64,000 bases of DNA from Thermoflavifilum sp. (lineage in GTDB: Bacteria > Bacteroidota > Bacteroidia > Chitinophagales > Chitinophagaceae), in the NCBI GenBank assembly GCA_023511875.1, contig JAIMAQ010000009.1, positions 1-64,000 on the forward strand, given 5' to 3'. The position numbers were made by a program, and so were the translations under genes. Below, in pieces: positions 2,298 through 33,652 of this stretch (position 1 is its first letter; the number at the start of each line of letters is the position of its first letter). Below the pieces are notes generated by a model that ran no database searches, was not told the DNA's origin, and was given only the letters and a program-made list of their open reading frames with translations.

Positions 2298-4340
2298 ATG
2301 TCTTCGCTACGCTCTGCTATTGTGCACTGCATGGCCATTTTGTTGTGGGTTGTTCCCGCATTGGCCCAGCAGCAATCGGACAATGCCGTCCCCTCCGCTT
2401 TGGAAGTCTTAAATGATGCTACCAATGGTTCTGAGGAAATAGGTGAACAGGCGGAAGAATGGGTTTCGGAGCTGGAATACTATCTGCAACATCCACTCGA
2501 TCTGAATCGGGCTACAGCCGAGCAATTGTCTGTTTTTCCTTTTTTGAATTCCCTACAAATACAAGCATTCCTCAATTATCGAAAACTCCTGGGAGCGTTT
2601 ACCAGTGTATATGAGCTGCAGGCTATTCCTGGGTGGGATTTAGCTACTATTCGCAAAATCATGCCTTTTGTACGTGTGCAGGAGCAGCATGCGGCCATAT
2701 CTGTGGCTTCGCGAATGCCTATTTTTCAAGCAATAAGCCGCTATCAACGCGCATTTCCTAAGTCGTGGGGATATGTCAAAACTACTGGAAGCCGCTACTT
2801 GGGCAGCCCAGATGCATGGTTGATCAAATGCCAAAGTTGGGGCGATCGTTATCGAGCAGGCTTTATTGCAGAAAAAGATGCTGGTGAACCCTGGTTTCGA
2901 AGCTTTAACTCCAAAGGTTTTGATCATTATGGGGCATATCTAGAATTAAGAAAACAAGGTATACTAGAGCGCATCACGGTGGGAGATTATGAAATCAACT
3001 TTGGGCAGGGATTGGTGAGTTGGCAAAGCTTTAGCCTTAATCATTCGGCATATGCCCTGCAGATCGAAAAAAATGCAGAGCCTATACGTGCACATAGCGG
3101 AACGGCCGAGAATGGATATTATCGGGGTATAGCCGCGCAACTGCGGGAAGGGGATTGGCAACAAGTCGTATTTTTTTCATACACTTCTCCCGGTGCCTAC
3201 TGGGATAGTGCTGATGGGCATCGGGTGATCACTTCTTGGGATCAAAATGGCTATCACCGCACACTCACGGAAAGCACACATCGCGGGGTGACTCAACTTT
3301 TTGCTGGAGGAGCTCGACTGGGCTATTATTTTTCTGCGGGTCATGTAGGTTTTAATGCAGTGTATCATCGACTCACTGTGCCCGTGCAAAAGAGCCAGAA
3401 AACGTATAACCAATTTGCATTCTCGGGCAATGTTTTATACAACATTAGTGTAGATTATGCTTTTAGCATAAGCAATCAACATTTTTTTGGAGAAGCTGCG
3501 TGGTGTGCAGGCAATCGCCTGGCTTTCTTGCAGGGCTGGATGATGCAGTTGAGCCAGACGGTAGATGTAGGCTTGCTTTTTCGCCATTATGACAAAGCTT
3601 ATCGTGCGTTTTATGCCAATGGATTTAGCGCGGGCGGGGAAACAGCCAACGAAACAGGCGGCTATTTGGCAACGGAAATGCATTGGCCGCGCTGGCAAGT
3701 GTATGCCTATGCCGATGTATATCATTTCCCTTGGTGGCGTTACCAAATCAGTGGGCCCAGCAGGGGTACAGAAGATCTGCTTCGGATCAGTTATCAACCT
3801 ATCAATGCTCCATCTTCATCTGCAACGATTATGTTACAGGTGCGCTACCGTCAGCAAGCCAAAGATGTAAAGACTAATAATGGCCAACTACCCTTGCCCA
3901 CTCAATTGTGGCAAACTCAATTTGGCTGGCAATGGGAGCGGAGTTCTTGGTGGTGGGCCTGCCGTGGCTTTTATCACGTTTTTCGGCAAACCGATAGTTT
4001 GTATCGGCAAGGAGTGGCTATCTATGGCGAATGGGGTCAACAAGTTAAGAATCGTTTTTCATGGAATACTCGCCTGGCCTGGTTTAATGTGCCAAGCTAC
4101 GAAGCTCGTATTTATACCTACGAGCGATCGGTGCTCTATCAATATAGCTATCCGTTTTACTACCACAATGGTTGGAGGGTATATCTCAATCTTCGCTACA
4201 GGCCTAGCAGGCACCTGAGTGTAGAATTACGCTGGGCTTCCACCTGGTATCTAGATCAACAGCAGATAGGTACTGGGCTCGACCAAATCGATGGTTCCAG
4301 CAAGCATCAACTAATTGCACAAATAATTTGGAAATGGTAG
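2298..4340 (+). CDS. Outer-membrane barrel protein with N-terminal helix-hairpin-helix region
   Basis: 680 residues from the ATG at 2298; an in-frame GTG at 2271 would add nine residues. A signal peptide ends near VVPALAQQQ. Residues of about 55-135 resemble tandem helix-hairpin-helix units of the ComEA type (LNRATAEQLSVFPFL and LQAIPGWDLATIRKIMPF). The rest is a long series of aromatic-rich alternating strands typical of outer-membrane beta-barrels, ending IAQIIWKW. Proteins with this layout are widespread in Bacteroidota and usually annotated only as helix-hairpin-helix domain proteins. The function is unknown; a DNA-related role would be inference from the HhH unit only. It precedes the SusC array but has no visible link to it. 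Confidence 0.85.
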   Translation: MSSLRSAIVHCMAILLWVVPALAQQQSDNAVPSALEVLNDATNGSEEIGEQAEEWVSELEYYLQHPLDLNRATAEQLSVFPFLNSLQIQAFLNYRKLLGAFTSVYELQAIPGWDLATIRKIMPFVRVQEQHAAISVASRMPIFQAISRYQRAFPKSWGYVKTTGSRYLGSPDAWLIKCQSWGDRYRAGFIAEKDAGEPWFRSFNSKGFDHYGAYLELRKQGILERITVGDYEINFGQGLVSWQSFSLNHSAYALQIEKNAEPIRAHSGTAENGYYRGIAAQLREGDWQQVVFFSYTSPGAYWDSADGHRVITSWDQNGYHRTLTESTHRGVTQLFAGGARLGYYFSAGHVGFNAVYHRLTVPVQKSQKTYNQFAFSGNVLYNISVDYAFSISNQHFFGEAAWCAGNRLAFLQGWMMQLSQTVDVGLLFRHYDKAYRAFYANGFSAGGETANETGGYLATEMHWPRWQVYAYADVYHFPWWRYQISGPSRGTEDLLRISYQPINAPSSSATIMLQVRYRQQAKDVKTNNGQLPLPTQLWQTQFGWQWERSSWWWACRGFYHVFRQTDSLYRQGVAIYGEWGQQVKNRFSWNTRLAWFNVPSYEARIYTYERSVLYQYSYPFYYHNGWRVYLNLRYRPSRHLSVELRWASTWYLDQQQIGTGLDQIDGSSKHQLIAQIIWKW

Positions 4341-17200: not shown

Positions 17201-18748
17201 ATGCGAAAAAACATATATTATTCATTGATATTGCTTAGCCTATTGGTGGCTTTTAGTGGATGCAAAAAGGGATTTCTTACAGACTTAGCTCAAAATCCCA
17301 ACTCTCCATCTGGAGCTGATCCCTCTTTGGTGTTGCCTGGCGTGTTGAGCACCCTTTCTGCCAACATCAGTGGGGGTGGCACCTATCAACGTCAGGGAGT
17401 ATGGCTGGGCTATTGGAACTATAGCGGAGGTTATTCATTGAATGCAGATGTTCAAGGCTATAAAATGACTACCGACACCCCACAAGTGTGGGATAATTAT
17501 TATGGAATTTTATCCAATGCCAATTATGTTGAACAGACCTCTGCTTCCATGCCCAACATGCAGAATTTTATGGCCATTGCCAAAATCATTAAAGCCCTAT
17601 GTTTCCAATATTTGGTGGATGTGTACAACGATGTACCTTATACACAGGCTTTAAAAGGAACCGCAGACCTGTTTCCCCAATATGATAAAGGATCTGATAT
17701 TTATGATTCTTTGGTCAATCAATTAGACGAGGCTATTTCCTTGATTCAAAACTCTCCCAATGCAATTAATCCTGGAAGTAGTGATATCATGTATAATGGC
17801 AAAATGAATTTGTGGCTGAAATTTGCCAACACCGTAAAATTGAGATTATTGCTGAGGGAATCGAATGTAAGCAGTAAACAAAGTTTTATTCAATCAGAAA
17901 TTGCTAAAACCGCCAATGTTGGCTATATTGGTTTTGGAGAAGATGCTTTAGTGAATCCTGGCTATTTAAATTCAAGTGGAAAGCAAAACCCGATCTGGGC
18001 AAGTTACGCCCTCACGCCCTCGGGTTCTTTAGTCGCCGATGGATATAATTATTTACGAGGAGGAAAGGCGGCGATGGATTTTTATAAGCTGAATAATGAT
18101 CCTCGTCTGGCTTATTTTTATGGGCAAATTGGCGACGATCCACGAGATCCGAATTTCTTCAAACCCACACTTCCCGTAGATACCAGCAAGTACGCAGCTG
18201 ATCCATTGGGCGAACAAACACTTCAGCCCTCTAAAGGCTCTGGTTTAGGTCCCGGAGTGTTGAAAGGCTACAATGCCCCTTCCGTGATCATGCTGGCAGC
18301 CGAAAGTTATTTTGTTCAAGCAGAAGCAGTTGTTCGAGGATATATGAGTGGAGATGCACAAACCTTATATCAAAATGGAATCAAGGCTTCGTTTGAATAT
18401 TTAAATGTCGGTGGTCAGCAGTCTGTAGCAGATAATCTGGCACAAACTTATTATAGCCAAAATCTTCCAAATGTGGGTTGGAACGCTAGCACTGATAAGA
18501 TTAAAGCTATCATTACCCAAAAATGGGCAGCACTCAATGGGATATGTAATGTAGAAGCCTGGAATGATTGGCGCAGAACTGGCTACCCAGTAGTACCTAT
18601 TTCTGTATACTCAGGAAAAGTGGCAGATCATATGCCTTATAGATATTATTACCCCACTTCAGAATATCAAAGAAATGTAGATGCATTAAAAGCAGTTGGA
18701 GGGGATCAGGTTGATCCCTATAACGATAAAATATTCTGGGGTCAATAA
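17201..18748 (+). CDS. SusD-like lipoprotein 3 (SusD-2 type)
   Basis: 515-residue surface lipoprotein paired with SusC3. The start at 17201 (MRKNIYYSLILLSLLVAFSG) puts the lipobox SGC near residue 22; the frame is open from 17171. Motifs resemble the other SusD-2 proteins here: DVYNDVPYTQALKGTADLFP, WLKFANTVKLRLLLRES, YFVQAEAVVRGY, and EAWNDWRRTGYPVV followed by YRYYYPTSEYQRN. It is followed closely (42 bp) by the DUF1735-type lipoprotein gene, so susC3-susD3-DUF1735 appear to be one transcription unit closed by the terminator near 19787. Confidence 0.94.
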   Translation: MRKNIYYSLILLSLLVAFSGCKKGFLTDLAQNPNSPSGADPSLVLPGVLSTLSANISGGGTYQRQGVWLGYWNYSGGYSLNADVQGYKMTTDTPQVWDNYYGILSNANYVEQTSASMPNMQNFMAIAKIIKALCFQYLVDVYNDVPYTQALKGTADLFPQYDKGSDIYDSLVNQLDEAISLIQNSPNAINPGSSDIMYNGKMNLWLKFANTVKLRLLLRESNVSSKQSFIQSEIAKTANVGYIGFGEDALVNPGYLNSSGKQNPIWASYALTPSGSLVADGYNYLRGGKAAMDFYKLNNDPRLAYFYGQIGDDPRDPNFFKPTLPVDTSKYAADPLGEQTLQPSKGSGLGPGVLKGYNAPSVIMLAAESYFVQAEAVVRGYMSGDAQTLYQNGIKASFEYLNVGGQQSVADNLAQTYYSQNLPNVGWNASTDKIKAIITQKWAALNGICNVEAWNDWRRTGYPVVPISVYSGKVADHMPYRYYYPTSEYQRNVDALKAVGGDQVDPYNDKIFWGQ

Positions 18749-18789
18749 AATTAAATATCTTTTCTGTTGAGCTACTAAAACTTTTTTAT

Positions 18790-19743
18790 ATGAAGAAAAA
18801 TATTTTATATAGCCTGCTTTCCTTGACAGCATTTGTTAGCTTGTTGTTTCTCTATTCTTGTTTAAAAAACAATGAATATTATACTGATTTTTCTAAAATC
18901 ACGCCATCTATTCAATTGCCCTTAGCAGCAAATAATCTGAACAACCCCGTCACTTTTTCTTTTACCACATCGAATATACCCGATACTATACCGGTATATG
19001 TAAATGTGGCTTCAATTAGTCCATTGAATACACCTGTGACGGCAACATTAGGCTTAGATACGGGTTATTTAAATCAATATAATCAAGCCAATGGAACGAA
19101 TTATGAGTTGCTACCCGATAGTGTGTATACCATAAGCAGTTGGGATATTACGGTACCTGCGGGTCAGAGATTGGCTTACAGCAATTTGATTATTTATACA
19201 ACTAAAATGGATGCAAGCCATAACTACGTCCTTCCCATTACGATTGTGAAATCATCATTGCCGATTGAAAATTGGAATCATTTATTGTTAAATATTGTTG
19301 CTAAAAATCAATATGATGGGGTATATGATTATCGAGGGAGGGTTGTAGATCCCAATCGTCCTCAGCTCAGCAATGATTTCAATCAATATGCCGGGAGTAC
19401 TTCCGTTTATTTAATTACTGCTGGGCCCACATCTGTAGTACAGTATTGGCCAGATGTAAGTGCTAATGCTATCCCTCTTTGGAATACGAATAACAATGCT
19501 ATAAGCTATTATGGTTCTGCTGCCCCAGTATACACAATTGATCCTAATACAAATCAGATCACTTCAATAACCAATGCGTATTTGAATCCACCTAATAATA
19601 GGTCTATCACCATAAATACTGCGGTAAATAATTATTATGATCCTGCTACAAAAACGATCTATGCAAGTTTTATCATGTCGCAACCCGGTTATCAAGATGT
19701 TACTGTGTATGATACGTTAACTTATCTAGGTCCAAGACCATAG
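18790..19743 (+). CDS. DUF1735-type surface lipoprotein
   Basis: 317 residues. Lipoprotein signal peptide MKKNILYSLLSLTAFVSLLF with the lipobox YSC. The N-terminal half (NPVTFSFTTSNIPDTIPVYVNV, TATLGLDTGYLNQYNQANGT, YELLPDSVYTISSWDITVPAGQ) is characteristic of the DUF1735 (BT_3987-like N-terminal) domain, an Ig-like fold common in Sus-type loci. The C-terminal half (YDYRGRVVDPNRP...) resembles the domains that accompany it, such as DUF4361. By position after SusD3 it is likely an accessory cell-surface binding protein of that system. It is the only non-SusCD gene in the array. Confidence 0.82.
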   Translation: MKKNILYSLLSLTAFVSLLFLYSCLKNNEYYTDFSKITPSIQLPLAANNLNNPVTFSFTTSNIPDTIPVYVNVASISPLNTPVTATLGLDTGYLNQYNQANGTNYELLPDSVYTISSWDITVPAGQRLAYSNLIIYTTKMDASHNYVLPITIVKSSLPIENWNHLLLNIVAKNQYDGVYDYRGRVVDPNRPQLSNDFNQYAGSTSVYLITAGPTSVVQYWPDVSANAIPLWNTNNNAISYYGSAAPVYTIDPNTNQITSITNAYLNPPNNRSITINTAVNNYYDPATKTIYASFIMSQPGYQDVTVYDTLTYLGPRP

Positions 19744-19786
19744 CCATATTCACACTCCGCTTTACTTAAATTACATCAGCATTTTT

Positions 19787-19816
19787 AAAAGGCTCAGCAA
19801 TGAGCCTTTTTTATTT
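19787..19816 (+). terminator. Rho-independent terminator after the DUF1735 gene
   Basis: Perfect 10-bp stem AAAAGGCTCA/TGAGCCTTTT with the tetraloop GCAA, running into a T-rich tract. It closes the SusC3-SusD3-DUF1735 unit. Confidence 0.92.
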
Positions 19817-19918
19817 TTATTTCTGATTATCATAATATCCCTCTCATTCAAATTATATATATAGCTTATTTATAACTATCTCATATAAAGTCTGATATAT
19901 GCTAATTGTGAATTTTTT

Positions 19919-20009
19919 GTAAACTAAATTTGTTTTTTTAGTTAATAGTTTACTAAATTGCACCAGTCAACCAAAATCAAACTGCTATGAAGAAAGTCTT
20001 ACTCTTTCT
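19919..20009 (+). promoter_or_regulatory. Promoter-like block and conserved 5' leader of SusC4
   Basis: An inverted repeat GTAAACTA/TAGTTTAC (19919-19926/19946-19953) surrounds GTTAA (19941-19945). TAAATTG (19954-19960) takes the place of the TAATTTAG box. The 21-nt leader at 19966-19986 differs at one base from that of SusC2, and the first 23 coding bases are identical. Confidence 0.5.
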
Positions 20010-23000
20010 CACGGCGCTTCTTACAAGTGCTGTGTGGTCTTTCGGACAACAAAGAACCATTACAGGTAAAGTGATTAGCCAAGACGGCTCGCCTATTCCC
20101 TTTGCCACCGTTCAAATCAAAGGTACTACCACAGGTACAACCTCCAATGAAAATGGCGCTTTTTCCATAGAAGTACCAGCAAATGCTGTATTGCATGTCT
20201 CTTCTATTGGATATGAAGCCCAGGATGTACAAGTAGGTGCGCAAAATCAGCTTATCGTACGTTTGCTCCCTACGGCTCAAAACTTGAAGGAGATAGTGGT
20301 TACGGCATTGGGTATTGAAAGAAATAAAAATGAGTTGCCCTATGCTGCACAACAAGTAAGTGGTGATGAAGTCACCAACACTCGGCCTGAAAATTTCCTA
20401 AATGCACTTTCTGGAAAAGTAGCAGGGCTTGATGTGAAGAGAAACAACAACATGGGCGGATCTACCAATATTGTTTTACGGGGATATAAATCTATCACCG
20501 GAAACAACCAGGCCCTTATTGTGATTGATGGGGTTCCGATCGATAATACGAATTATAATTCAAGCAGTGTGAGGAATGGCTTTGGCGGATATGATTACGG
20601 AAACACAGGTGCCGACATCAATCCCGATGATATTGCTTCGATTAACGTATTAAAAGGTGCTGCTGCAACAGCCCTTTATGGCTCTCGTGCAGCCAATGGT
20701 GTTATCCTGATTACCACCAAAAAAGGAAAAAAAGGGTTGGGCATTACATTTAATATCGGTGGATCTACGGGTAGTATGGACAAATCTACCTGGGTAAAAT
20801 ATCAACATGAATACGGTGCTGGTTACTTTGATCCCGATTATTACACCTATTCCGATCCACCCTCCCCAGATCCCCATTTCTTGTACCAAATTGTGAATGG
20901 TCAATATGCCTTGGTAGTGCCTACTACTGAAGATGCTTCCTTTGGAGCTAAATTTAATCCCGGCCTACTCGTTTATCAATGGGATGCTTTTGATCCAAGC
21001 TCTCCCAACTTTGGTAAACCCACTCCATGGGTGGCTGCTAAGAATGACCCCACTACTTTTTTTGAAACTCCATATAGCTATAACACCAGTGTATTTGTAC
21101 AGGGTGGAGATGATCGGCAAACATTTAAATTGGGCTATACCCGTAATGGCGATAAGGGCATTCTTCCCAATAGCCATTTGACGAAGGATATGGTAGATTT
21201 CTCAAGCACCTATAACATCACGCCCAAATTAAGCGCTACGGCCAACATTAATTATACCAAGGAATCGGCTGTGGGTCGCTATGGCAGCGGATATGATTCC
21301 TATAACCCTGCCACCAATTTCCGGGAATGGTGGGAGATGAATGTAGATATTAAAGAACAAAAAGCAGCTTATTTCCGTACCCACCAAAACATCACCTGGA
21401 ATATGACCGATCCAGTAGGCGGAGATATTGGCCCCATATACTGGGATAACCCGTATTTCGTGCGGTATGAAAATTTTGAAAACGATCAGCGCAATCGTTA
21501 CTTTGGTTACCTCATGCTCAATTATAACCCCACTAGCTGGTTAAGTCTCATGGGCCGCGTATCACTAGACCAATACGCAGGGATACAGGAAGAACGTGGG
21601 GCTGTGGGAAGTGTAGAGGTGCCCTTCTATAGCCGTTATAATAATAATTTCAAGGAGTTCAACTACGACTTTTTGGCCAACTTTAATAAAGATCTTTCCA
21701 GTAGCTTGAACATAAAAGCCTTGCTAGGGGCAAATCTTCGCCGTACCTATTTTAATTCAATATATGCTTCTACCAATGGAGGATTGGTGATTCCGAGATT
21801 ATATTCCCTTTCGAATTCTTTAAACCCCATTAATGCCCCGTCTGAAGTAGATCAGCAAATTGAAGTTGGCGGTGTGTTTGGAGGTATCACCCTTACCTAC
21901 AAAAATTTCCTCATCTTAGACGCTACAGCTCGTCAAGATCAATCTTCTACCTTGCCTGCAGGTAAGAATAAATATTTTTATCCTTCTATTTCTGGAGGAT
22001 TTATTTTCTCTCAGCTGCTGAATAACCTTTCTTGGCTAAGCTTTGGTAAACTTCGACTCAACTACGCTGAAGTAGGTAATGATGCGCCATGGGCATTTAT
22101 TACAGATGTGTATGATAAGCCCACGCCATATGGAAGCATAGCCTTGTTTTCTGTGCCCAGTACAAAACGAAATGCAAATCTAAAGCCCGAACGTACCCGA
22201 AGCTATGAAGGAGGAATCAATCTAGGGTTTATCAACAACAGGATCGGAATCGATGTGACTTATTTCAAAACAAATACCATTAATCAAATTATCAGTATTG
22301 CCGTCCCTGCAGAAACCGGATACTCTTCTAAAGTGATCAATGCCGGAAATGTGGAGAACAAAGGCATAGAAGTAACGCTGAACTTGGTTCCTGTGAAAAC
22401 AAATAGTTTTTCCTGGAATATGGATATCAACTGGTCGCGCTATCGGAATAAGGTGATCAGTTTGTATGGGGATGCTAAAAATATTCAACTGGGCAGATTC
22501 CAAGGAGGAGTGACACTGAATGCTACTATTGGTGAACCGTTTGGGGTGCTCAAAGGAAAGGACTTTGTGTATCATTCCACCACTGGAAAGCCAATAGTGA
22601 AAAGCAGTGGATACTACCAGATTACTTCAAGCGCCGATAATATCATTGGCAACATTAATCCTGACTGGACAGGGGGAATCTCCAACACCTTCCGGTATAA
22701 AGATATTAGCTTAAACTTTTTGATTGATTTCCATCAAGGAGGAGATTTATTCTCCATCGACCAGTGGTATGGGCAAGGTACGGGCTTGTATATCGAATCG
22801 GTTGCCCTCAATGCTAATGGCAAATCTATTCGTGACCCAGTTAATCAGGGAGGTGGTTATGTGTTTCCAGGAGTTACTGCCGATGGAAAGGAAAACACCA
22901 AATATGTGCCTATTACCGGTCTAAGAGGCTTTGGATATCTGAATATGCCCAATAAAGCCTATGTATTCGATGCTAGTTATATTAAATTGCGTGAAGTGAA

Positions 23001-30253: not shown

Positions 30254-30943
30254 ATGGATGAAGATGTAATTGTTTCGCTCCAGCATGCTCAAATTTGTCA
30301 TGGCAAAGCCGTGATCCTGAGCGATGTGAATATTACGATTCGAAAAGGAGAATTTGTATACCTTGTTGGAAAAACAGGAACGGGTAAGACCAGTTTGTTA
30401 AAAACGCTTTATGGAGATTTGCCCTTGTGCGGCGGAGAAGGCAGGGTAGTGGGTTTCGACTTAAAAAAACTAACATGGAAAACAGTGCCTTACTTGCGCC
30501 GTAACCTGGGTATTGTGTTTCAAGACTTTCAATTGCTCACCGATCGGAATGTACACGACAACCTGCTTTTCGTGTTGAAGGCTACAGGCTGGAAAGACAA
30601 AAATCTTATGGAAGAAAAGATTAATAATGTGCTGGAAAAAGTGGGTTTGAAGACCAAAGGCTATAAAATGCCTTATGAGCTTTCTGGCGGTGAACAACAG
30701 CGGGTCGATATTGCTCGGGCATTGCTCAATTCACCTAAACTCATTTTGGCCGATGAACCTACCGGCAACCTGGATCCAGAAACCTCAGACGGCATCATGC
30801 AGCTGTTGTTTCAAATTTGCCACGATTATCACACTACAGTAATCATGGCTACCCACGATTATCTCGTGTTACAAAAATTCCCCTCGCGTGTACTCCGCAC
30901 CGAACTGGGCAAGGTAAGCGATTATGCAGATATTCGCCTGTAG
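30254..30943 (+). CDS. ftsE: ABC transporter ATP-binding protein, FtsE-like
   Basis: 229-residue ABC ATPase. Walker A is [16 protein letters not shown] (from about residue 36), the Q-loop is [13 protein letters not shown], the ABC signature is [16 protein letters not shown], Walker B is [12 protein letters not shown], and the switch His is in MATHDY. The short size, the FQDFQLL segment and the lack of other domains match FtsE, the cytoplasmic ATPase that works with the membrane protein FtsX in cell division and murein-hydrolase control. In many Bacteroidota ftsE is not beside ftsX, and no ftsX is in this window. The assignment to FtsE rather than LolD or another lipoprotein exporter ATPase is probable, not certain. 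Confidence 0.8.
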
Positions 30944-30973
30944 GGCATAATCAATTTGAAATGAAATTCATTA

Positions 30974-31855
30974 ATGATGTTGAATAAAATAGCAGAAAAA
31001 GAAATAAAAACAAAAAAGCAGTTATCTAAAATGAATGAGAATCATTCAAAAGAATTTGAGCTTTTATGCCATGTCTTTAAAGATACCAATAAAATAATAT
31101 TGAATCATAAAAAATCGCTTTTGTTAAATGGTGATGTCTTGCAGGAAGATTTCTTTGATAAAGAATATTTTGATTTGATTATTACATCTCCTCCTTACAA
31201 TGTAGATATAAAATACAATTTACACAATGATGATTTAACCTATGATGAGTATCTGGAATTCTCTGAGATATGGATCAATAACTGTTACAAGTGGACGAAG
31301 AATCAAGGAAGGTTTTGCTTAAATATTCCATTGGATAAGAATAAAGGAGGTCAAAAAAGTGTGGGTGCTGATTTAACCACGATTGCTCAGAAAGTAGGAT
31401 GGAAATATCATTCTACAATTATCTGGAACGAAGGGAATATTTCCAGAAGAACAGCATGGGGCTCATGGTTATCTGCTGCAGCTCCGTATGTCATTGCTCC
31501 CGTTGAACTTATCGTAGTTCTTTATAAGAAAGAATGGAAAAAAACTAATGGTTCACAAATATCAGATATTACAAAAAAAGAATTCATGGATTGGACAAAT
31601 GGACTATGGACTTTTAATGGTGAAAGCAAAAAAAGGATAAGACACCCTGCTCCTTTCCCGTTAGAATTGCCTTATAGATGTATTAAACTATTTAGTTTTG
31701 TTGATGATATTATCTTTGATCCTTTTGCAGGAAGCGGAACTACTTTAATTGCTTCTAACAATACAAATAGATACTCCATTGGGTTGGAAATAGATTTTAA
31801 ATATTGTGAGTTAGCAAAACAAAGAATATTAAATGAGTCGGGAATGTTGTTTTAG
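30974..31855 (+). CDS. Site-specific DNA methyltransferase (beta class, probably N4-cytosine)
   Basis: 293-residue amino-methyltransferase. The catalytic motif IV TSPPYN (residues 71-76) comes before the SAM-binding motif I DPFAGSGTT (249-257), which is the beta-class order. The TSPPY form is typical of N4-cytosine enzymes, although N6-adenine cannot be excluded. The first ATG (30974) is used; a later one at 31031 is possible. The gene is visibly richer in A+T than its neighbours, with runs of A and many AAA/AAT codons, suggesting acquisition. It is followed after 17 bp by an HNH nuclease gene, so it is read as the protective half of a type II restriction-modification system. Confidence 0.92.
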   Translation: MMLNKIAEKEIKTKKQLSKMNENHSKEFELLCHVFKDTNKIILNHKKSLLLNGDVLQEDFFDKEYFDLIITSPPYNVDIKYNLHNDDLTYDEYLEFSEIWINNCYKWTKNQGRFCLNIPLDKNKGGQKSVGADLTTIAQKVGWKYHSTIIWNEGNISRRTAWGSWLSAAAPYVIAPVELIVVLYKKEWKKTNGSQISDITKKEFMDWTNGLWTFNGESKKRIRHPAPFPLELPYRCIKLFSFVDDIIFDPFAGSGTTLIASNNTNRYSIGLEIDFKYCELAKQRILNESGMLF

Positions 31856-31872
31856 TTTATAACGAAAAAGGG

Positions 31873-32466
31873 ATGAGAAAGAATATCAATAAAAGCATTA
31901 CCGATTTAATAATTGAATATTTCAAGGACCATCCCAATCAAGAATTACCCCACAGGCCAGTTGTTGATTGGGTCGAAGAAAAATATAAAAAGCTTTATCA
32001 TAGAAAACCAAGAGACACTTGGCGAGCTATTAGAAGGTTACATCAACAAGGATTTTTAATTAAAGTAAAAAAAGGAGTTTATAAGTATGATCCAGAATTT
32101 GTTACTAAAAAGGAAATAGAAGATTTTACACCAGAGTTAAAAGAACAAATACTAAAACGAGATGGTTACAAATGTGTAATCTGTGGTAGAAGCGCAATGG
32201 AGGGATATGAATTGCATGTTGACCATATCTTGCCTAAAGACAAAGGTGGCAAAGCAACATTGGAAAATGGACAAACACTTTGTTCAATCTGTAATTTTAG
32301 AAAGAAAAACTACAACCAAACAGAAAGTGGGAAAAAAATGTTTATTAGGCTTTGGGAAACAGCAAAAAGGATTGGTGACACTGAAACTAAAAAATTTTGT
32401 GAGGAAATTTTAAAAACATACGAAAAGTTCAATATCAACGGGCACATTGAATGGAAAAAAGAGTAA
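31873..32466 (+). CDS. HNH endonuclease with N-terminal winged-helix region, probable restriction enzyme
   Basis: 197 residues. Residues of about 5-75 look like a winged-helix DNA-binding region (IIEYFKDHPNQELPHRPVVD ... GFLIKVKKGVYKYDP). Residues 85-150 form an HNH nuclease with zinc-holding Cys pairs C101/C104 and C137/C140, the catalytic HVDH at residues 115-118 and Asn132. Placed directly after the methyltransferase and sharing its A+T-rich composition, it is the likely restriction partner. The recognition sequence cannot be predicted here. A homing-type HNH is less likely because of the winged-helix region and the methyltransferase neighbour. Confidence 0.85.
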   Translation: MRKNINKSITDLIIEYFKDHPNQELPHRPVVDWVEEKYKKLYHRKPRDTWRAIRRLHQQGFLIKVKKGVYKYDPEFVTKKEIEDFTPELKEQILKRDGYKCVICGRSAMEGYELHVDHILPKDKGGKATLENGQTLCSICNFRKKNYNQTESGKKMFIRLWETAKRIGDTETKKFCEEILKTYEKFNINGHIEWKKE

Positions 32467-32539
32467 TTGAGTAGATACAATTTTGGCTATATGCCATTAA
32501 AACTACGCATAGCTGCTGTACGTACCAACCATTCTAACC

Positions 32540-33652
32540 ATGAAACCCCTGATTGTCATCTCGGCACAACGCTTTTTCAGAGGGGGAACGGTGGAAGCCG
32601 TGCGCCTATGTTTGCAGGCTTTGTCGGCCGCTGTAGGGGAAAAATACTTCATTCGCGCACTGGTTTATCGTCCAGAAGATTATCCCATTTTGCCTCAGGT
32701 AGAATATGTGGCGTTTCCACAGTCTAGAAAAGGTTGGTGGCGAAGGTTATATGCAGAATATGTGCTTTTCCCTCGACTGGCAAGGCGATGGAAGCCTGTG
32801 ATCTGGCTTTCTTTACAAGACAGTACGCCGCCTGTAGATGTGCCCTACCGCGCTGTGTATTTTCATCATCCCCTCGTTTGTACATCATTGCCCTCTTCCA
32901 TCTGGTGGCAGCAGCCACGCCTCTGGGGGTTAAAAATGCTCTATCTTTTCGTTTATCTACGACATATCCATACCAATGATGCCATCATTGTACAGCAGCA
33001 CCAGCTCCGTGAAAAATTGATCGAGCGCTACCATCTTCCTCCTGAAAAAGTGTGGGTGATTCCCTTAGTCCATCGGCAATATCCATCCACATGTTCCGCC
33101 AGTCCTGCTTCGCCAACATACAGATTTTTTTATCCATCCTATCCATATGCCTACAAAAACCATTTGCTCTTATTTCAAGCGGTTCAAATCTTGGTTAATA
33201 GGGGAGTTTCTGGTTTTGAAATCATTTGCACTTGTGGGCGTAAAGAGAATGGATATATCCGAAAGCTAATCCGTCGTTTTTCCCAGTCGCTACCCTTGCG
33301 GTTTACTGGGGTGCTGCCCCATCAGGAGGTAATGAATTGGTATACACAATCTCACGCCTTGGTATATCCCTCGCTGGCCGAGACCTGGGGGTTACCACTA
33401 AGCGAGGCGGCCTCTTTGGGTAAGCCTATTTTGGCCGTTGATTTACCCTATGCGCGGGAAACACTCACTGGCTACAATCGGGTTTGTTGGTTACCACCAG
33501 ATGATGCCGAGAGTTGGGCAAATGCTATGCAGACCATGATTGATGGCCATACATGTGATAGGCCTTTGACAAGGGAGACTAAGTTTGTGCAGTCAAGTCA
33601 AATCGATTGGGCTCGGTGGCTCCAACAGGCGCTTCAGCAGTTGTCTGAGTAG
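32540..33652 (+). CDS. Glycosyltransferase (GT4-like, group 1)
   Basis: 370-residue GT-B fold glycosyltransferase, probably cytoplasmic and involved in surface polysaccharide or lipopolysaccharide assembly. The C-terminal donor-binding half is clear: RFTGVLPHQEVMNWYTQSHALVYPSLAETWGLPLSEAASLGKPILAV, containing the E-x7-E type motif of GT4 enzymes. The N-terminal acceptor half (VISAQRFFRGGTVEAVRLCL) carries the glycine-rich loop. Donor and acceptor are unknown. Its last 74 bp overlap the 3' end of the convergent glycosyltransferase gene. It follows the restriction-modification cassette by about 73 bp. Confidence 0.88.
   Translation: MKPLIVISAQRFFRGGTVEAVRLCLQALSAAVGEKYFIRALVYRPEDYPILPQVEYVAFPQSRKGWWRRLYAEYVLFPRLARRWKPVIWLSLQDSTPPVDVPYRAVYFHHPLVCTSLPSSIWWQQPRLWGLKMLYLFVYLRHIHTNDAIIVQQHQLREKLIERYHLPPEKVWVIPLVHRQYPSTCSASPASPTYRFFYPSYPYAYKNHLLLFQAVQILVNRGVSGFEIICTCGRKENGYIRKLIRRFSQSLPLRFTGVLPHQEVMNWYTQSHALVYPSLAETWGLPLSEAASLGKPILAVDLPYARETLTGYNRVCWLPPDDAESWANAMQTMIDGHTCDRPLTRETKFVQSSQIDWARWLQQALQQLSE

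Follow-up and report, generated by a model that had tools for sequence, protein, structure and literature searches.

A mobile two-gene restriction-modification unit of Thermoflavifilum sp. with CCGG as its predicted recognition site

Gene content and insertion site

Two adjacent genes, encoding a DNA methyltransferase (MTase) and a putative winged-helix/HNH (wH-HNH) restriction endonuclease, lie between an ftsE-like gene and a glycosyltransferase gene in the window (the whole 64,000-nucleotide stretch of Thermoflavifilum sp. DNA that was analysed; Table 1). An earlier note on this DNA had described an A+T-rich restriction-modification cassette in which the MTase and a 197-residue nuclease are 17 bp apart. 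These open reading frames and their spacing are correct (the gap in the ORF list is 31856-31872), and so is the composition: the inserted genes have a G+C content of 31.7%, compared with 44.2% for the ftsE-like gene, 48.3% for the glycosyltransferase gene and 43.6% for the whole window. Only one of 1251 sliding 1493-bp segments is equally A+T-rich, and that one overlaps the cassette. A second A+T-rich stretch is located at 18401-20243, with a lowest value of 34.4% G+C over 1493 bp.

Table 1. Coordinates of the features discussed (window positions unless a locus is named)
Feature	Position	Strand	Description
ftsE-like ABC ATPase gene (left neighbour)	30254-30943	+	one codon shorter than sister genes at the insertion
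Inserted unit, best-supported limits	30941-32522		1582 bp; first bases are the stop codon of the ftsE-like gene
MTase gene	30974-31855	+	beta-class DNA methyltransferase, 293 aa; m4C at CCGG predicted
Presumed target-recognition region	31385-31609	+	MTase residues 138-212; limits chosen by us
Nuclease gene	31873-32466	+	putative winged-helix/HNH restriction endonuclease, 197 aa
Winged-helix domain	31873-32094	+	nuclease residues 1-74; cullin WHB Z 9.5, Fur Z 8.3
HNH domain	32122-32322	+	nuclease residues 84-150; EcoKMcrA HNH Z 8.0; PF01844
attC-like remnant	32470-32522		aligned to the L001/L002 attC-like site; neither core boxes nor fold retained
Glycosyltransferase gene (right neighbour)	32540-33652	+	name given in the earlier note from sequence alone
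LexA-MTase fusion	L023:3530-4969		
LexA-MTase fusion	L034:3521-4945		
LexA-MTase fusion	L035:2412-3806		
LexA-MTase fusion	L049:5595-6968	-	
LexA-MTase fusion	L065:5564-6919	-	
LexA-MTase fusion	L220:1504-2910		

Insertion between these two neighbours, proposed in the earlier note together with a search for an empty site in relatives, is borne out by four of four same-genus genomes: in each, the ftsE-like gene (93-94% identical) and the glycosyltransferase gene are adjacent without the insert. The ftsE genes of the sisters are longer by one codon at this end, and the stop codon TAG of the window gene is formed by the first three bases of the insert. On the other side, 17 nt separate position 32522 from the glycosyltransferase ATG, and the corresponding spacing in the sisters is 17, 17, 17 and 16 nt. 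The matching spacers and the codon difference indicate that nothing was duplicated or lost beyond approximately one base. The unit is present in a single copy in the host genome (2.7 Mb in 35 contigs), the sequence of its right end occurs once in that genome, and no convincing repeats were found at its ends.

The nearest relatives of the unit are at loci L001 and L002 (L and G numbers are our handles for loci and genomes), which have identical nucleases and unlike flanks. In a blastn comparison with these loci, positions 30944-32523 align at 84% and the match ends there. Both relatives start with GTTAGGC and end with GCCTAAC, a long imperfect hairpin and GTT, a layout that suggests an integron cassette with an attC-like site. 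The bottom strand of this site is predicted to fold with -17.7 kcal/mol in L001 (z -4.40) and -15.2 kcal/mol in L002 (z -2.93). The window copy lacks matching R''/R' boxes and the hairpin, both of which L001 and L002 have, and its right end folds with -6.3 kcal/mol (z -0.96 against shuffles), barely better than chance. In L002, an oppositely oriented tyrosine recombinase gene begins approximately 0.15 kb upstream of the unit; its product passes NF040815 (recomb_XerA_Arch, 'site-specific tyrosine recombinase/integron integrase') with 237.5 bits (cut-off 220) and is below the cut-off of the integron integrase model TIGR02249 (223.5 vs 265). The region L002:3036-5747, with the apparent start of a further gene past the attC-like end, is a possible Bacteroidota integron. 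In the host, a search at E 0.001 gave just two tyrosine recombinases; they share 36% and 30% identity with the L002 enzyme and are probably Xer proteins. Exact R''/R' pairing was observed in 3 of 93 units (L001, L002 and L006), compared with 0.55 on average and at most 3 in 200 re-pairings; the L006 boxes are far out, at 250 and 95 bp. Since L001 and L002 look like one element and the L006 boxes are distant, the integron reading rests on one element, and we lean only slightly towards an integron route for this lineage.

The two proteins and their relatives

The MTase matches PF01555 over nearly the whole length of the model (E 1.1e-44). TSPPY (motif IV, residue 71) precedes DPFAGSGTT (motif I, residue 249), the order that defines the beta class to which the earlier note had assigned it, and the catalytic and SAM motifs (SPPY, DPFAGSGTT) are intact.

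The same note had read the nuclease as a winged helix joined to an HNH domain, and both domains are recovered. PF01844 matches residues 101-146 (E 1.1e-12; 48.3 bits, cut-off 21.4), while no Pfam model exceeds its cut-off in the N-terminal part. An AlphaFold2 model built from 50 family members has a mean pLDDT of 87.3 with a pTM of 0.44, which makes the individual domains fairly trustworthy and their relative arrangement uncertain. On a second look at the Foldseek matches, the winged helix fits the cullin WHB domain with an rmsd of 4.4 over 70 positions and Fur with 1.8 over 64; the HNH domain fits EcoKMcrA (Z 8.0, rmsd 2.4 over 66), Cap5 (Z 7.9) and IscB (Z 7.8), where a Z of approximately 8 may mirror common arrangements and the HNH assignment is settled by the PF01844 sequence match. 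The Foldseek search with the nuclease model gave nothing at E ≤0.001: its top rows are McrA-type HNH domains (EcoKMcrA, ScoMcrA) and winged helices, and the absence of known wH-HNH restriction enzymes from them is no proof that none exist. Residues D117, H118, N132, N141, C101, C104 and C137 are invariant in the 50 sequences, and R47, D48, R51 and R54, in or before the third helix of the winged helix, are invariant or nearly so. The recognition helix of this domain comprises residues 49-58. PADLOC and NCBIfam matches to PtuB, IscB and Cas9d (HNH) and to AbiEi (weak winged helix) were rejected as signs of kinship, none involving a full-length model. A PDB sequence search matched 20 sequences, the best of them in the HNH core, and no characterised full-length relative was found in NCBIfam, the PDB sequences or the open-access literature. 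A close match to a well-studied system, which the earlier note had named as evidence against its reading, exists for the MTase, linked by gene order (see below), and was not found for the nuclease.

Relatives of the nuclease were found at 76 loci in a scan of genome contigs (74 with an unbroken match of 90 residues or more, two as the HNH core only), and the pair is thus not due to chance. The neighbour is an MTase of the window family at 57 loci, a C5 MTase at six and a distant, convergently oriented LexA-fused beta MTase at two; the rest comprise five loci without these MTases, four cut by a contig end and the two HNH cores. The 57 window-family MTases are at least 54% identical, with 54 upstream of the nuclease and three downstream; some are broken or cut, and that of L060 is truncated. 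The nuclease gene therefore adjoins an MTase gene, and the two are kept together across relatives. The domain pairing, described in the earlier note as less common, proves to belong to a widespread family: its hosts include Bacteroidota, Spirochaetota, Elusimicrobiota, Patescibacteria, Cyanobacteriota, Bacillota and Campylobacterota, together with two archaeal MAGs (Nanoarchaeota and Micrarchaeota), and some of these host names may be wrong as most records are MAGs. The unit is also found on a Calditerrivibrio plasmid. Among 395 Bacteroidota genomes, six loci outside the host have an MTase at least 59% identical, with the nuclease adjacent in all six; in L120 both genes look broken.

No record in the phage collection had one place covering 80% of the nuclease, and the MTase at E 1e-20 matched eight records there, all cyanophages and approximately 38% identical. 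Two of 63 viral-contig loci (L271 and L272) match most of the nuclease, and both hold the MTase, which was searched for in these two; the remaining 61 match less strongly, for the most part in the HNH core. A single MTase is accompanied by both a wH-HNH and a BsaWI-type nuclease in the same cluster at L052, L053 and L122, all outside the Helicobacter family (BsaWI-type evidence: PF18643 E 1.3e-21 in L052, just under cut-off in L122, tblastn only in L053). At L071:4962-7634, a wH-HNH relict is located beside a BsaWI-type gene and an MTase of a third type, which has a YHRYPAKF motif.

At five family loci from Patescibacteria (L023, L034, L035, L049 and L065), an in-frame fusion joins the MTase to a whole LexA repressor, which comprises a DNA-binding domain and an S24 peptidase domain, with Ala-Gly where cleavage is expected and both the Ser (GDSM/GNSM) and the Lys (TLKK) present. 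A window-family MTase is followed by the nuclease in L023, L034 and L035; a related MTase faces the nuclease in L049 and L065. Ten of 379 Patescibacteria genomes match LexA-MTase at E 1e-60, two of them near full length (one is the L023 genome). By tblastn, the matches in L225, L227 and L229 extend beyond LexA into the window MTase; inspection by eye shows MTase-like motifs in L222 and L226 and only LexA in L224. In L220, a LexA-MTase is convergent with a BsaWI-type nuclease (PF18643 E 6.9e-10). No paper on such fusions was found in the open-access literature; we would guess from this architecture that restriction-modification is placed under DNA-damage control.

Evidence bearing on the recognition site

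Four H. pylori-like MTases (L176-L179) are 58.0-58.8% identical to the window MTase over 243 residues. For L176 and L178 the identity is 59-60% overall, 68.5% in the presumed target-recognition region, within the limits we chose for it, and 46% around motif IV. MTases beside ThaI-family nucleases (PF15514 E 4.9e-89 and 1.9e-95) show 35-36% identity in the recognition region and 54-55% in the motif I part; ThaI reads CGCG. By eye, the gene order in L176-L179 is BsaWI-type nuclease, MTase, ClpB-like gene, presumably that of hp0262, hp0263 and hp0264, and by this order we take these loci to be the H. pylori hp0262-hp0263 locus. The BsaWI-type nuclease matches PF18643 at the two loci scanned (E 2e-30 and 2.7e-35). 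Excerpts of PMC6381644 report m4C at 3535 of 3542 CCGG sites and orthologues of hp0262 (restriction) and hp0263 (methylation). Excerpts of PMC3936762 describe M.Hpy99VIII (jhp0248) as a beta-class enzyme producing m4C at CCGG (3581/3624), listed without an accompanying restriction gene. The beta motif order and a conserved recognition region, as expected of an M.Hpy99VIII-type enzyme, are both found in the comparison with L176 and L178.

The same kind of MTase is paired with either of two nucleases within one bacterial family. In the family of Helicobacter sp. G440 (L074), 64 of 121 genomes have an MTase match at E ≤1e-30, and 57 loci from 57 of these 64 genomes carry wH-HNH (35 loci) or a BsaWI-type nuclease (22 loci), never both and never neither, as called by tblastn above 50 bits in stretches that, for 30 of the 57, reach only approximately 1.5 kb to each side of the MTase. 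The genomes left out are G446 (38% identical, sister type, seen as L146) and G458, G474, G493, G518, G523 and G553, with weak, broken or sister-type MTase matches. Matches to several of the 35 wH-HNH copies are split into two or three pieces, and these copies are probably broken; the nucleases of L150-L152 are located over 1 kb downstream and extend past the end of the locus, and the BsaWI copy of L168 is a fragment. L168 is placed among the wH-HNH-paired rows of an MTase tree that was used for this locus only, as it includes an L049 row in the wrong frame (branch of approximately 10 changes per column).

Exchange of the other partner points to the same word. A C5 MTase of the L056/L048 type adjoins wH-HNH at six of the 76 loci, Pseudanabaena and a Defluviitaleaceae MAG (L048) among them. 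With its recognition region as query, the only records at E 1e-3 were seven plasmid MTases, 58-74% identical. The neighbours of the five looked at are one HpaII-family nuclease (L109, PF09561 E 4e-100), two MspI-family nucleases (L110, PF09208 E 2.5e-27; L113, by annotation) and two weak BsaWI matches (L111 and L112, E 1.9e-4 and 6.2e-4, below the Pfam cut-off). The stretch TL(C/V)STYHKIQRLTGTFVK(D/G)G is common, exactly or nearly, to the Pseudanabaena and L048 C5 MTases and those of L109, L110 and L113, is nearly shared by those of L111 and L112, and is absent from the C5 MTases of L114 (two), L115 and L070. MspI reads CCGG. So does HpaII, according to excerpts of PMC11837570. Each nuclease type is thus seen with each MTase type, the combination of BsaWI-like nuclease and C5 MTase resting on the E-values below cut-off. 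The C5-paired nucleases are 53-60% identical to the window nuclease in their best piece and are placed in the sister part of the nuclease tree (56 rows, 99/99), outside the 11-row clade of the window (L068 is not in the tree), so that a specificity common to both is presumed. Because they occupy two places in the tree, the L048 branch having only 89/85, two independent swaps are suggested.

The host genome is depleted in CCGG: the observed/expected ratio is 0.74 in 429 kb (675 vs 917; bootstrap 0.69-0.79), and a smaller sample of 84 kb gave 0.72. Same-genus genomes have ratios of 1.07, 1.09 and 1.10 (180-200 kb each) and, for the fourth, 1.06 (33 kb). Relative to three sister genomes, CCGG is the most depleted of the 256 tetramers, and its ratio is below that of each of the three in all 16 flanking base pairs. 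Of the four NCCGGN palindromes, TCCGGA shows the strongest effect in the host; a second system as the cause of its rarity was rejected, the loss being seen in all 16 flank contexts. The insert itself holds no CCGG, with approximately one expected at its composition. A search of the host limited to PF00145 and PF01555 found no C5 MTase (PF00145) and no other PF01555 MTase. For CTAG the ratio is 0.68 in the host and 0.13-0.38 in the four same-genus genomes, a far weaker depletion in the host. As other words such as CTAG also differ between the host and its sisters, depletion alone would not name the site. Furthermore, a site takes time to become depleted, while the A+T-richness of the unit and its absence from the sisters suggest recent acquisition; an earlier CCGG system could be the cause.

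Proposed function and comparison with known systems

We interpret the locus as a mobile Type II restriction-modification system of two genes, directed at CCGG, with a probability of roughly 80%. The earlier note had left the recognition site unknown; it can be predicted from the comparisons above, and CCGG is the most likely one. In the proposed mechanism, the MTase would mark CCGG in host DNA with N4-methylcytosine, and the nuclease would bind the unmethylated word. The winged helix probably helps recognition, as it is the sole other DNA-binding-type fold of the protein and has the near-invariant R47, D48, R51 and R54. The HNH site (H118, N132, N141), held by a zinc, is predicted to cut unmethylated CCGG, and incoming phage or plasmid DNA would be cut at this word.

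The site may be longer with CCGG at its centre (YCCGGR or WCCGGW, for instance), or the nuclease may be more selective than its MTase: the recognition site of BsaWI, for which the BsaWI-type relatives are named, is longer with a CCGG core, and TCCGGA is the palindrome most affected in the host. This is unlikely, given that depletion is seen in 16 of 16 flanking pairs and that HpaII and MspI read CCGG. A related MTase is also published as methylating plain CCGG (excerpts of PMC6381644 and PMC3936762). Somewhat less probable again is that the two genes have decayed or fallen silent and lack activity. The attC-like end in the window is degraded, 10 of 77 loci were flagged because a frame shift or stop interrupts the matching part of the nuclease gene, and the fragmented Helicobacter-family copies add to this picture; both window open reading frames are nevertheless intact, all invariant nuclease residues are present, and CCGG is depleted in the host.

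Least probable, and in our view very improbable, is a Type IV, modification-dependent nuclease. The same pair of domains occurs in Type IV enzymes of 224-283 aa tested for Gm6ATC dependence (excerpts of PMC11037411), and the closest HNH folds include the modification-dependent EcoKMcrA and also ScoMcrA. In the same excerpts, however, stand-alone winged-helix fusions are the rule, with no MTase within three genes in 87%, while the window nuclease has an MTase as its neighbour and its relatives adjoin one of the three MTase kinds at 57, six and two of 76 loci. CCGG-type MTase partners from two unrelated classes fit protection, not conflict.

Under the preferred reading, a Type II system for CCGG, a short nuclease family for which no description was found would be a family of CCGG enzymes. 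The exchange network would also be a clear example of nuclease and MTase evolving separably, with a common DNA word as the only link between them. The sequence of a restriction enzyme seldom reveals its specificity; here partner exchange on both sides, a published methylome and site depletion converge on one four-base word, which makes the prediction testable by a single digest. The open-access literature searched, REBASE not included, yielded no account of a wH-HNH enzyme belonging to an orthodox CCGG system. We give even odds to the broader proposal that wH-HNH enzymes form a new class of orthodox restriction enzyme and a further structural answer to CCGG, freely exchangeable across many phyla, with either half swapped (wH-HNH for BsaWI-type; m4C for HpaII/MspI-type m5C) and, through the LexA-fused MTases of some Patescibacteria, under DNA-damage control.

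Among known enzymes, the Type IIP HNH nucleases KpnI, PacI and Hpy99I (excerpts of PMC4081073) have the same HNH class in an orthodox Type II system; they have other recognition sites, and none was recognised among the 20 matched PDB sequences. SruGXI and other Type IV wH-HNH enzymes likewise combine a winged helix and HNH in one short protein, but are described in excerpts of PMC11037411 as m6A-dependent and their fusions as mostly stand-alone; by that description they are set apart from the window enzyme, which is shorter and beside an MTase. The HpaII and MspI systems have the predicted site of the window system, and MTases beside nucleases of these two families share the recognition region with the wH-HNH-paired C5 MTases of Pseudanabaena; in contrast to the m4C predicted here, the HpaII and MspI systems produce m5C, and their nucleases are of unrelated families. 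The closest system is hp0262-hp0263/jhp0248 (M.Hpy99VIII), linked to our loci by gene order: its MTase is 58-59% identical, with the same motif order and a better conserved recognition region, whereas its nuclease is BsaWI-type (PF18643) and that of the window is wH-HNH.
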